Shown here piece by piece: positions 7,055 to 16,348 of a stretch of DNA of 23,387 nucleotides. Every line of letters begins with the position of its first letter. The stretch's first letter is position 1. The stretch is from a virus, in IMG/VR virus record IMGVR_UViG_3300025874_000101, positions 1 to 23,387 of that record; one strand, 5' to 3'. Under the pieces are notes generated by a model. That model was given only the letters and a program-made list of their open reading frames with translations. It was not told where the DNA came from and made no database searches. Made by a program: the position numbers and the translations under genes.

Positions 7055-7329
7055 TATCTAGATCTTCCTTCTGCAAAACCCCTAAAAGCTTTTTCTTCTT
7101 TAGCTTCTTTTGGGTTTTCATTTAACATAGCGTCTTCCTCTTCTATTCTAGCAAGTATTTCAAAAGCATCGAATATAGCTAATTTTTTAGTTGCGGCAGC
7201 ATTTTTAAGTCTGTCAGCTGATAAATCATCTTCTGAGTCAACGATCTTTTCTTCTGCCACTTTAATTAACTCCTTAACTGCTTTTTGCCCAGCTAGGATT
7301 ATATTCTTCTTGGTTTCCTTTGTGTTCAT
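7054..7329 (-). CDS. small helical protein before terL, possible small terminase subunit
   Basis: A 91-residue, charged, mostly helical protein (KKNIILAGQKAVKELIKVAE, then SADRLKNAAATKKLAIFDAF). It sits directly upstream of terL and overlaps it by one base. Small terminase subunits, which recognise packaging sites, often occupy this place, and the size is at the low end for that role. No clear helix-turn-helix can be pointed to, so the function is a positional guess. The first 56 bases overlap the end of the tandem GroES-like gene in another frame. No later Met exists before residue 68, so this start is the best available. Confidence 0.6.
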   Translation of the reverse strand: MNTKETKKNIILAGQKAVKELIKVAEEKIVDSEDDLSADRLKNAAATKKLAIFDAFEILARIEEEDAMLNENPKEAKEEKAFRGFAEGRSR

Positions 7330-7879
7330 ACTTAATTACAATATCATTAGATTTCATACAATAAACTCTTTGATCGTCTATTATAAAATCCCATTCACTA
7401 CCGGGCGTAAACCCTACTGTGTCTCCTGGATTGATATTAAGCGCTTTTAAAGAACTATTACCTATTTTTAATATACCAATAAGGTCTTGCTCTTTTTGTG
7501 ATCTTAAAGTGTCTTTGTTTTTTAAAGGTATTACAAAGCATCTGTCTCCAAATGATTTCCAATCCTCTGTATTTTTATACAAATATATTTGATCTGCCGA
7601 ACAAAAGTGTAAGTCATCTTTAAAATGAGATCTACTTCTTTTCTTATTACCTCGGATATCATAAAAAACTCTAAATACATTATGATGTATTATTATGATA
7701 TCGCCTTTTTTTATACTTGTTTTAAAAGCTTTTGGTGTTTCAACCACTATAGCTAAATTGTTTACAGACTTAAAGTCTTCAATTTTAGTGTTTAGTATTA
7801 ATGTAACGTCGCCTAGCTTTACCTTGTTATCGTATCTATCGCCAATAGGTTTGACGATAAAATCGTATAGACTTCTCAT
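7274..7879 (-). CDS. tandem GroES-like protein (two GroES-type folds), candidate co-chaperonin
   Basis: A 201-residue protein whose two halves each follow the GroES plan. Half one has FIVKPIGDRY, a strand-loop with VTLILNT where the GroES mobile loop lies, NLAIVVETP, then IKKGDIIIIHHNVF, and ends in ADQIYLYK. Half two has CFVIPL, LIGILKIGN, INPGDTVGFTPGS, then RVYCMKSNDIVIKYE. Escherichia coli GroES has the same order: RVIVKR, GGIVL, GEVLAVG, VKVGDIVIFND, then VLIMSESDILAIVE. The correspondence of VxxGDxVxF with a closing SDI strand in both halves is the main evidence. GroES caps the GroEL chamber; T4 gp31 does the same job for its capsid protein. Whether this protein binds GroEL is inference. 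It is double the length of normal GroES and sits beside the packaging and capsid genes, away from the groEL-groES pair. It might instead be a virion protein that reuses the fold. Confidence 0.55.
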   Translation of the reverse strand: MRSLYDFIVKPIGDRYDNKVKLGDVTLILNTKIEDFKSVNNLAIVVETPKAFKTSIKKGDIIIIHHNVFRVFYDIRGNKKRSRSHFKDDLHFCSADQIYLYKNTEDWKSFGDRCFVIPLKNKDTLRSQKEQDLIGILKIGNSSLKALNINPGDTVGFTPGSEWDFIIDDQRVYCMKSNDIVIKYEHKGNQEEYNPSWAKSS

Positions 7880-12646: not shown

Positions 12647-12958
12647 TTATTTTTTAGTTTTATTATATGCTTCTTTTTCCCAGGGTAAGTTTTTTGCCCC
12701 TTCTTTCATTTGTTTGCGTGAATATTTTTTACCTTTCCAGTATACGTTTTGATCGTCATAGTCTAAATCACCCCTCTTCATTTGATCTATGTGTACCATT
12801 TCGTGTTTTATAACACTATTTAATTTAGCTGGTGATAAATTATTATTTATAACAATAGTACCATTGTTATTGGCTTTACCTAAAACGCCATCTTCCATAT
12901 CTATACTATAAATAGGAGTATTGTCTATATTATAAAATGGTTGAATTTTAAAAGCCAT
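12647..12958 (-). CDS. small HExxH metallopeptidase-like protein
   Basis: A 103-residue protein with a zinc-peptidase motif, H52-E53-M-V-H56, inside NSVIKHEMVHIDQMKRG. A Trp-Glu-Lys-Glu-Ala block near the end (E94 and E96) could give the third zinc ligand in gluzincin style. A TIVINNNLSP segment just before the motif resembles the edge strand that small metalloproteases use to hold substrate. It is much shorter than typical secreted peptidases, more like the small phage peptidase-like proteins found near tail genes. Substrate and activity are unknown: virion maturation or cell-wall entry would be guesses. The N-terminus MAFKIQPF is shared with the protein at 8823-9269. The candidate structured RNA ends 10 bp before its ATG. 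Confidence 0.6.
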   Translation of the reverse strand: MAFKIQPFYNIDNTPIYSIDMEDGVLGKANNNGTIVINNNLSPAKLNSVIKHEMVHIDQMKRGDLDYDDQNVYWKGKKYSRKQMKEGAKNLPWEKEAYNKTKK

Positions 12959-12968
12959 AGTTTTTTTT

Positions 12969-13093
12969 AAATAAAAAGCGGTCCTGACTAGTAAGTCATT
13001 GTGAGAGTTCTATCACTTAGTTCCTTATAGGTGTCCTCACGTTGATGGAAGGTTCCACCATTAAATGACGAATGAGGACCGCTACTTTTATTT
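12969..13093 (-). ncRNA. candidate structured RNA, about 125 nt, multibranched
   Basis: The ends pair strongly on the coding strand. AAAUAAAA (13093-13086) pairs with UUUUAUUU (12976-12969), and AGCGGUCCU (13083-13075) pairs with AGGACCGCU (12985-12977), giving 17 bp with one 2-nt bulge. Inside, GUCAUU pairs with AAUGAC, enclosing two hairpins: UGGUGGA/UCCAUCA with loop ACCU, and GUGAG/CUCAC around a larger loop region. The hairpin contains a G-U pair that would be a C-A mismatch on the other strand, favouring the minus strand. The 5' arm overlaps the stop codon of the upstream gene, and the 3' arm is followed by an A8 run and the next ATG. It has no coding content. No known ribozyme or riboswitch core was recognised. 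Confidence 0.55.
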
Positions 13094-13250
13094 AACAGTT
13101 ACAATGTTTAGACATCCAAGAACCTTTCATCGATAATGGACTTGAACCACTACATCCTTTCTTGTCCAAAGGGCTTCCGTAGTTTGCCATTGATCCTTTT
13201 TTTTCTTTTGTTGCTTTTTCTACTAATTTACTTTTTTCTCCGTAAGGCAT
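13092..13250 (-). CDS. 52-residue Cys-containing microprotein
   Basis: Read from ATG at 13250 to TAA at 13092. The product starts MPYGEKSKLVEKATKEKKGS and ends in a segment with GSPLDKKGCSGSSPLSMKGS and a final KHCNC, giving three Cys. A GCSxxS plus MKG pattern also occurs near the end of the 58-residue protein at 13719-13895, suggesting related small proteins. The function is unknown, and with three Cys it could bind metal or form disulfides after release. Its stop codon lies at the foot of the candidate RNA stem. Confidence 0.6.
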   Translation of the reverse strand: MPYGEKSKLVEKATKEKKGSMANYGSPLDKKGCSGSSPLSMKGSWMSKHCNC

Positions 13251-14124: not shown

Positions 14125-14548
14125 TGTTGACGTTTTTTATAGACACGCTTAATACTTTATCTGTATAAGTATCTCCTTTCATTATTTTGTTTCTACTACT
14201 CGTAGGTATATCATCTTGACCTAACATTATCCTATAAATTCTATTTATAAGTTGTTTGCCTTTAAATGATACTTTATATATATGATACTTTTGAGTAGTT
14301 CTATTTCTTTTTCGCCAAACAGAGATCCAGTTTTCCTTCAATAACTTATTCCATCTTCTATTATCCCAACTGTATGAAAACGTACCTGTTTTAAAATCTT
14401 GTTTAGTAAACATGTCTAAACAATCTAAATAAATTAATAGTTCTAGATCAGCGTCGTTTAAGTCATTATTTCTACATGCCCATTTTCGTATGATTCTGTA
14501 GTGTTTCAACAACCCTAATTTTTTAACATCACTAGCATCTATTCTCAT
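14108..14548 (-). CDS. possible winged-helix DNA-binding protein
   Basis: A 146-residue basic protein directly after groES, with an ATGA overlap. The first 100 residues read like a small winged helix: helices in KHYRIIRKWACRNNDLNDAD and LELLIYLDCLDMFTKQDF, a recognition-helix-like segment in WNKLLKENWISVWR, and a wing-like hairpin in NRTTQKYHIYKVSFKGKQLI. A KGK..I.R.Y step follows, as in MarR-like proteins. The role would be a regulator or DNA-end binding protein, but no signature residues fix this. Similar proteins are frequent in marine phage structural regions. The last 40 residues are polar and probably disordered. Confidence 0.5.
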   Translation of the reverse strand: MRIDASDVKKLGLLKHYRIIRKWACRNNDLNDADLELLIYLDCLDMFTKQDFKTGTFSYSWDNRRWNKLLKENWISVWRKRNRTTQKYHIYKVSFKGKQLINRIYRIMLGQDDIPTSSRNKIMKGDTYTDKVLSVSIKNVNNDKTR

Positions 14549-14811
14549 AAAACTACAACTATATCTTGCATTTTTATAACTTGATACGGATCACCTTCTA
14601 TTTCTATTGTGTGACCAGCGTGTCTATCGTAGTAAATTAAATCACCCTTGGTTAGACCTGCTTTGGTTGCTTCTTCTCCAGGAGATATTACAGATGCTTT
14701 AATGTATCTTATATCTTCCCTTTGTTTCTCGGCAAGAAGTAAACCGCCTTTAGTAGCGGCCACTCCTTCTTTTTGTTTTTTTATTATTAAGTTTCTACCT
14801 ATCGCCTTCAT
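14545..14811 (-). CDS. groES: co-chaperonin GroES
   Basis: An 88-residue GroES, slightly shorter than the cellular 94-97. The order is strand NLIIKK, then a mobile loop with KEGVAATKGGLLLAEKQ in which G22-G23-L24-L25-L26 stands for the GroEL-binding GGIVL of E. coli. ASVISPGEEA, TKGDLIYYDR and a closing VIKMQDIVVVL strand follow. The roof hairpin that closes the dome is short. It would cap the phage GroEL and possibly the host GroEL, making the folding chamber. Its ATG lies 17 bp inside the end of groEL, so the two are coupled, but in the order groEL then groES, the reverse of the usual bacterial operon. No Shine-Dalgarno sequence precedes it. Confidence 0.88.
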   Translation of the reverse strand: MKAIGRNLIIKKQKEGVAATKGGLLLAEKQREDIRYIKASVISPGEEATKAGLTKGDLIYYDRHAGHTIEIEGDPYQVIKMQDIVVVL

Positions 14812-16348
14812 TTGCTCTTAAATTATTAATTACACAATCAGTTGATAATATTGTAGTAGCTACAGATGCAGCATTTCTTAATGCACTTTTGGTTACCATT
14901 AACGGATCAATTATACCGTGTTTAACCATATCTACAGGTTCTCCTGTTATTGCATTTAAGCCAACACCTTTGTCTTGTGGCTGCGATGCCGTGATACCTG
15001 CATTTTCTAATATTGTAAAGTAAGGCGCTTTTATAGCTCTTAATAAAACTTCTTCACCTAATCCTTCACTTTTAATATATGTTGAAGCATTTAATAATGC
15101 AACGCCACCACCTGGTACAATACCTTCTTTTACGGCTGCTTTTGTTGCGCAAATAGCATCTTCAACTCTATCAGTTTTTTCTTTTAACTCTACTTCAGAG
15201 TTTGCACCAACTTTAACCACTGCAATTTTAGCAGTTAGCATTGATAATCTTTTTTCAAGCTTTATAACTTCCCAGCTTTTTAGCGTGTTATTCGTAAGCT
15301 TTTCTTTTATGCTACGTATTACATCCTTTATCTTTTCGGACGCCTCAGAGACCGTTATAACAGTGTCCTCGTGCGAGGTAACGCTTTTTAAACAAGATCC
15401 TAAATAATCTACGTCAATTGAATCAAGGTCATCGCCTAAATCTTCGTTAACTATTGTAGCTCCAGTTAGTAAGGAAAGATCTTCAAGTACTTCTCGTTTG
15501 CTAATACCATAAGTAGGAGCATTGATTACATTTACTTTTAAATTACCTTTCTTTTTATTGGTAGCCAGAGTTGATAAAACACCTTGTTCTAAATCGCCTA
15601 TAATAAGCAAAGGTTTATTGTTTTTTATTACGTACTCCAGCACTTTCTGTATATCTCTTATAGTATTAACTGGTGATTCCATGATTAACACTAATGGATT
15701 TTCTAATTCCGCTGTTTTTGTTTGTTCGTTTGTAATGAAATGAGAATTTGTTAAACCTTTATCATAAGGTACACCTTCAATTAATTCAGAAACAGTTTTA
15801 CCGTCACCGGCAGTTTCCATCATTACAATACCTGTATTATCTACAGATCTAAACGCATCAGCTATAATAGAACCTAATTCATTGTCGTTGTTAACGGATA
15901 TAGAAGCTATATTATCTAGCATATCTCCTTTTACATCAACCGCTAGCTTTTCTAAATACTTAATTACTTTTTCAACTGCAGAATTAATACCATCTTTTAT
16001 TTCTCTGGCATTTTTCTTTTCTGAAACAGCATAAGCTTCTTTTAATATAGCGTGTGCTAAAACAGTTGCGGTAGTTGTACCGTCACCTGCTTCTTGAACA
16101 GTTTTTCTAGCGGCTTCTTTTAACAGTGTAGATCCCATATTTTCAACCGGATCAAACAATATTATTGAATCAGCTACAGTAACACCATCTTTTGTTATAA
16201 CAGGTTTGCCTGTGCCGTCTTCTAGCATCACGCATTTACCGCCGGCTCCTAATGTAGAGCTGACAGCATTTGCTAACTTTTCTATTCCTTTAAATACTTG
16301 ATCTCTAGCATCGTCACCAAAGTTCAAGTTTTTGACAATTCCGTTCAT
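14795..16348 (-). CDS. groEL: chaperonin GroEL (phage-encoded, tail-less)
   Basis: A 517-residue chaperonin, full length except for the C-terminus. ATP-site elements are present: ITKDG (D54, the E. coli D52), GDGTTTATVLA (D89, the E. coli D87), VEDAICATKAAVKEGIVPGG with the Asp equivalent to D398, and GLNAITGE with GIIDP. All three domains are present, so ATP-driven folding is expected. Oddities: TLGPKG is TLGAGG. The apical groove has changes at positions equal to E. coli Y199 (L), Y203 (H), L234 (Q), V263 (A) and V264 (T), while F204, L237 and L259 are kept. The C-terminal Gly-Gly-Met tail is absent, with the protein ending ANEGDR. It heads the cassette with groES, after a leader holding pentamer repeats and a hairpin. 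Confidence 0.95.
   Translation of the reverse strand: MNGIVKNLNFGDDARDQVFKGIEKLANAVSSTLGAGGKCVMLEDGTGKPVITKDGVTVADSIILFDPVENMGSTLLKEAARKTVQEAGDGTTTATVLAHAILKEAYAVSEKKNAREIKDGINSAVEKVIKYLEKLAVDVKGDMLDNIASISVNNDNELGSIIADAFRSVDNTGIVMMETAGDGKTVSELIEGVPYDKGLTNSHFITNEQTKTAELENPLVLIMESPVNTIRDIQKVLEYVIKNNKPLLIIGDLEQGVLSTLATNKKKGNLKVNVINAPTYGISKREVLEDLSLLTGATIVNEDLGDDLDSIDVDYLGSCLKSVTSHEDTVITVSEASEKIKDVIRSIKEKLTNNTLKSWEVIKLEKRLSMLTAKIAVVKVGANSEVELKEKTDRVEDAICATKAAVKEGIVPGGGVALLNASTYIKSEGLGEEVLLRAIKAPYFTILENAGITASQPQDKGVGLNAITGEPVDMVKHGIIDPLMVTKSALRNAASVATTILSTDCVINNLRANEGDR

Follow-up and report, generated by a model that had tools for sequence, protein, structure and literature searches.

The window, which is the whole 23,387-nt stretch of viral DNA analysed here, contains a structured non-coding element of 125 nt on the minus strand at 12969-13093 (RNA A). 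At the same slot, directly upstream of a peptidase-like gene, related phages carry RNA A, a second RNA with covarying helices (RNA B) or neither of them, and the RNAs and the genes on their two sides do not share one history. Because relatives hold a different RNA or none at this spot, RNA A reads as an exchangeable accessory and not as a fixed part of the virus. The explanation we prefer, to which we give slightly less than an even chance, is that a marine phage related to flavobacterial podoviruses carries RNA A as an exchangeable accessory, a non-coding RNA that is freed from the operon transcript and acts in trans.

Position and predicted fold of RNA A

RNA A is flanked by a 52-aa ORF and a 103-aa metalloprotease-like ORF, the two tiny genes between which the initial annotation had placed it. 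That annotation also saw no coding sense in the region, and consistently, no ORF of at least 20 aa lies within 12969-13093. Its edge is overlapped by one 23-aa plus-strand ORF and by the end of the 52-aa gene. The absence of ORFs in RNA A, together with the 1-nt indels between copies of RNA B, rules out a coding sequence as the reading of the element. The features of the region, from upstream to downstream, are as follows.

13092-13250, minus strand: 52-aa ORF (..MKGSWMSKHCNC), upstream of RNA A, left border of the slot
12969-13093, minus strand: RNA A, structured non-coding element without an ORF of at least 20 aa and without an Rfam match
13075-13093, minus strand: 5' arm of the closing stem P1 (AAAUAAAA, 2-nt bulge, AGCGGUCCU), from the predicted fold; pair probability of the GC-rich part about 1 except for the last pair (0.57)
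12995-13069, minus strand: possible stem P2 (GUCAUU with AAUGAC) around P3 and P4; complementary, with a predicted probability below 1% in the window and about 16% in L025
13043-13060, minus strand: hairpin P3 (UGGUGG AACCUU CCAUCA); pair probability 0.92-1.0; a G.U pair is G-C in L025 (U49C)
13001-13039, minus strand: possible hairpin P4 (GUGAG...CUCAC, inner CUAU/AUAG); the C64-G84 pair is reversed to G-C in L025
12969-12985, minus strand: 3' arm of P1 (AGGACCGCU then UUUUAUUU), where a U-rich tract comes after a GC-rich stem, as in a terminator
12647-12958, minus strand: 103-aa metalloprotease-like ORF (HExxH), downstream of RNA A, right border of the slot; phrog_16532 (E 1.3e-11) and phrog_87 metallo-protease (E 4e-5)

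The 103-aa ORF also matched DUF6782 with an E value of 1.3e-4, which is under the Pfam cut-off for DUF6782, and the 52-aa ORF had no match in PHROGs, Pfam or PADLOC. The genes around RNA A are head, tail-fibre, chaperonin and small genes, all on the same strand. Portal, terminase and fibre genes are also within the window, and the large terminase is of the ordinary type. Among the 87 phage records that matched the terminase, 86 are named for Flavobacterium, Cellulophaga, Tenacibaculum or Maribacter, which suggests a flavobacterial host for the window phage. The phage also encodes GroEL and two GroES-like proteins (14795-16348, 14545-14811 and 7274-7879).

The minus strand of 12969-13093, whose folding was proposed in the initial annotation, has a predicted energy of -39.2 kcal/mol against a mean of -22.5 kcal/mol for dinucleotide shuffles (z -4.68), and none of the 200 shuffles folded as low. 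The plus strand also gave a z of -3.61, so the strand is not decided by folding energy alone. Nor does folding energy alone single out RNA A, since 12961-13090 ranked only third among 1163 sliding windows (minus-strand folding energy, GC-corrected). The closing stem P1 has the 17 bp and the one small bulge first described: 8 A-U pairs, a bulge of 2 nt and 9 pairs (AGCGGUCCU/AGGACCGCU). The 9-mer inverted repeat in P1 is one of only two such GC-rich repeat pairs with a spacing of 50-260 nt in the whole window. The interior described with it, a second 6-bp stem and two hairpins, held up in part. The letters of P2 are complementary, and P2 is a minor predicted state, with the minimum-energy fold using other pairs. 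P3 is firmly predicted, and the hairpins other than P3 are uncertain in the model.

RNA A is present in only five contigs, as two variants with four base differences. The copies in L001 and L002 are identical to that in the window, those in L023 and L025 are 97% identical, and the RNA always stands before the same peptidase gene. Between the window and L025, U49C changes the G.U pair in P3 to G-C, C64G and G84C keep the CUAU/AUAG helix, and A86U lies in a loop. The initial annotation had taken a wobble pair as support for the minus strand; the G.U to G-C change in P3 confirms this argument only partly. The compensating change C64G/G84C is suggestive of P4, and random sets of four substitutions produced a compensated stem of at least 4 pairs in 1317 of 20000 trials. 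Because there are only two variants, too few for a proof by covariation, the predicted inner fold of RNA A rests on folding energy plus one weak compensating change.

RNA A was compared with the 4227 families of Rfam 15, where membership means that the covariance-model score reaches the gathering cut-off. No family, ribozymes and riboswitches included, matched anywhere in the window at these cut-offs. When E values up to 10 were allowed, the RNA A region gave three sub-threshold rows, the best with 14.3 bits where the cut-off is 40, and PreQ1 was the sole riboswitch among them (11.1 bits, cut-off 39). RNA B had no Rfam match, also at E values up to 10, and phi29 prohead RNA (pRNA) was absent from the matches to both RNAs over the same range. 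A tRNA or tmRNA was rejected, as ARAGORN found 0 genes in the window. A tRNA-Met (CAT) gene is present in the terminase-related contig L444 (2571-2647). A type III toxin-antitoxin RNA, for which direct repeats next to a ToxN-like toxin gene would be expected, was also rejected, with no direct repeats in 12900-13150 and no PADLOC match for the neighbouring genes.

Pattern scans of viral contigs for further RNA A returned the same contigs and otherwise scattered matches. No near or distant homologue of RNA A or RNA B was found in annotated phages. Neighbours sought through the 96-aa gene or the terminase (the best 80 of at least 600) gave only records already known to carry them, and no report of either RNA was found within open-licence papers. 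The proposal of a novel structured phage RNA is thus supported by the missing Rfam match, the non-coding sequence, the strong predicted fold and the covarying RNA that occupies the same slot in relatives.

RNA B and the slot in related phages

RNA B is about 165 nt long and was found in nine contigs as six distinct sequences. The copies differ by 1-nt indels, which makes it unlikely to be coding. Its plan combines a closing stem with a three-way junction and a pair of hairpins, between whose loops there is covariation, and it has a conserved loop GAGAYYUUGG and a U-rich tract at the end. In the alignment of the six sequences, 94.8% of the 248 cells pair, and 9 of the 42 stem pairs show a two-sided compensating change; the six sequences represent few lineages, so that independent events are fewer than cells. 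The covariation score was equalled by none of 500 shuffles. When the partners were slid, pairing fell to 37-50%, a comparison that favours the true structure because the structure was derived from the same alignment. By our sum over the pair table, 22 of the 248 cells are G-U pairs, which argue for the RNA strand, as they would be mismatches on the opposite strand.

The loops of P3 and P4 in RNA B can pair with each other as GAC/GUC in three sequences and as GAU/AUC in the other three. All unpaired columns were scanned for extra helices of 3 or more pairs that every one of the six sequences retains and that include one or more covarying pairs; the only hit was the P3/P4 loop contact. This sequence evidence marks RNA B as a structured RNA. 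When viral contigs were scanned for the pattern of RNA B, only the B contigs and short matches came up, and a further candidate, L277, was rejected after checking because it is coding. A scan of bacterial genomes with the core of RNA B gave 14 loci, none from Bacteroidota by record title, and the similarity was local only, over about 22-39 nt.

RNA A and RNA B have the same position, the same orientation, a long closing stem and a U-rich end in common. RNA A was rejected as a divergent RNA B, as the covariance model of RNA B scored it at 2.0 bits (right strand, filters off), and the same model with default filters had no match in the whole window. Homology of the two RNAs is not shown by their sequences.

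Among 80 peptidase loci, RNA A is directly upstream in 4, RNA B in 5 and neither in 71, some of these 71 being truncated at a contig end. L206 is a sixth case of RNA B in the peptidase slot, and its upstream gene is nearly identical to that of the window, which holds RNA A. Empty sites of the slot are found in L029/L224 and L044/L207. In L050, L054 and L056, RNA B follows a 129-aa relative of the 96-aa gene and precedes a different gene. All observed copies of both RNAs are oriented alike relative to the genes next to them. A plain, terminator-like hairpin with a T-tract lies just upstream of the peptidase-like gene in L049, L050, L054, L056, L059 and L061.

The histories of the RNAs and their flanks are discordant. 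The RNA B copies of L206 and L031 are 98.2% identical, while the 250 nt upstream are 59.8% and the 300 nt downstream 83.4% identical. Between the window and L206, the upstream sequence is 97.1% and the downstream sequence 81.8% identical, and the RNAs, A and B, look unrelated. Between the window and L025, RNA A is 96.7%, the upstream sequence 99.6% and the downstream sequence 81.8% identical. Most other pairs of RNA B are 70-77% identical, lower than the downstream gene, and are not discordant in the manner of L206 and L031.

Complete phages of this relationship are 60-61 kb in size. Five relatives of 60-66 kb (L034, L055, L069, L078 and L251), roughly full-length and not certified complete, had no match to the RNA B model, and RNA A was unmatched in them by DNA similarity, a search with no positive control in this set. 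This weakens the suggestion of a packaging guide as far as an essential role is meant. The suggestion that the element switches translation of the peptidase-like gene loses weight as well, since RNA B also stands before another gene and several relatives have the peptidase-like gene with neither RNA. A search of structured gaps in the relatives for a third RNA cassette found none; it returned only hairpins resembling terminators, a tRNA-Met and a single further hairpin family. A second conserved hairpin (GACAATAGC ... GCTAATGTC) is present in 4 of 463 loci (L384 10685-10724, L387 13467-13506, L413 9136-9175 and L462 4402-4441) and absent from the window; its outer stem differs in L462 and L384.

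How the RNAs might act

In the preferred explanation, RNA A would be transcribed with the operon from the minus strand, and the long closing stem, with its 3' arm running into the U-rich tract, would serve to delimit the RNA or to release it, through termination or processing. Once released, RNA A would work in trans, as RNA B probably does too, on some factor of the host or the phage. Recombination would swap A, B or no RNA independently of the flanking genes, in the manner of accessory genes under host-driven selection such as counter-defence. A search for a trans target of RNA A found none, one 12-nt complementarity to the upstream ORF being near chance. The P3 segment at 13044-13055 is complementary at 11 of 12 positions to the MKGS-coding stretch of the 52-aa ORF (13120-13131), which 10 of 300 shuffles equalled, and at 10 of 12 in L025. 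The same-slot exchange could also come from a recombination-prone gene boundary alone, and the U-tract and the nearness to the start codon also fit a terminator acting in cis.

The main rival is such a cis-acting terminator, attenuator or processing element, which would set the level of the downstream gene, the interior being a large loop carried by a terminator stem. It owes this rank to the U-rich 3' end and to the plain hairpin with T-tract that some relatives have before the same gene (directly so in L049, L050 and L059). This rival is possible, if on the unlikely side. As in intrinsic terminators, including those with long insertions, the GC-rich stem of RNA A is directly followed by a U-rich tract (AGGACCGCUUUUUAUUU), which ends about 10 nt before the ATG, and RNA B likewise ends U-rich. 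A terminator scan, which covered loops of 3-8 nt, did not list the 3' arm of RNA A. However, the interior of RNA B differs from that of such terminators in its covarying helices and its conserved, covarying loop-loop contact, which are beyond the needs of termination. The arms are also about 90 nt apart in RNA A and at least 130 nt apart in RNA B, several relatives lack such a hairpin in the slot (L029 and L044), and RNA B is also found before a different gene.

A further proposal, which we consider rather unlikely, is an exchange slot for RNA-only cassettes. In marine phages related to flavobacterial podoviruses, non-homologous structured RNAs (A, B and possibly more) would replace each other as units at one junction of the operon, all built on a plan in which a closing stem and a three-way junction go with two hairpins that touch by their loops. 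Their trans action would be directed against host factors or serve the assembly of virions, so that they would be to RNA what swappable counter-defence proteins are to protein.

An element acting at the DNA level, such as a recombination hot spot or a small inverted-repeat mobile element, would need no RNA function. Its appeal lies in the inverted repeat with A/T-tract ends, the movement independent of the flanks and the two insertion sites of RNA B. We regard it as improbable, because the inner helices of RNA B carry compensating changes and G-U cells, the RNA A variant changes G.U to G-C, and all copies share one orientation to their neighbours.

A self-assembling structural RNA like the phi29 pRNA, aiding packaging or virion assembly, is very improbable. 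The plan of RNA B and the portal, terminase and fibre genes in the window are in line with it, and RNA A can be drawn on the same plan with a loop match CCUU/AAGG. One study (PMC5340915) describes pRNAs as having little sequence in common and a conserved structure. However, neither RNA matches pRNA or any other Rfam family, the 4-bp loop match of RNA A is equalled in 4031 of 20000 shuffled loops, and a loop contact could equally form within one molecule. Moreover, neither RNA was found in the near-full-length relatives and so is probably not essential there, and the phage has an ordinary large terminase. An undescribed class of self-cleaving ribozyme or metabolite riboswitch is the least probable reading: a compact multi-helix fold directly before a gene and the conserved loop of RNA B would suit it, against which stand the finding that Rfam, up to E 10, holds no matching ribozyme and no credibly matching riboswitch for either RNA and the fact that RNA B is not bound to one downstream gene.

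Relation to known systems

Like the phi29-type pRNA, RNA A and RNA B are phage-encoded. The pRNA plan, in which a closing helix and a three-way junction go with two hairpins of complementary loops, is supported by covariation in RNA B, where the loop contact is of 3 bp, and can only be drawn for RNA A. They differ from it in having no Rfam match, in being apparently accessory and in belonging to another phage group with an ordinary large terminase, and the loop contact in RNA A is not beyond chance. With pRNA the likeness is thus far one of plan alone. GOLLD, ROOL and other ornate RNAs are likewise structured, linked to phages and without an assigned function. These RNAs are several hundred nt long, in contrast to the 125 nt of RNA A and the roughly 165 nt of RNA B, which have no Rfam match.

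A parallel in behaviour may be found in phage accessory genes (morons), which are present, absent or replaced at a slot between close relatives and have a history apart from their flanks. Phage accessory slots are usually viewed as protein slots. The A/B cassette differs in being RNA only, with no protein gene. If the preferred explanation is true, phages trade small functional RNAs as cassettes, two unrelated-looking RNAs exchanging at one slot and moving independently of the genes beside them. With two concrete RNAs whose ends are defined, and with a site that is naturally empty, this is testable in phages of cultivable Bacteroidetes.
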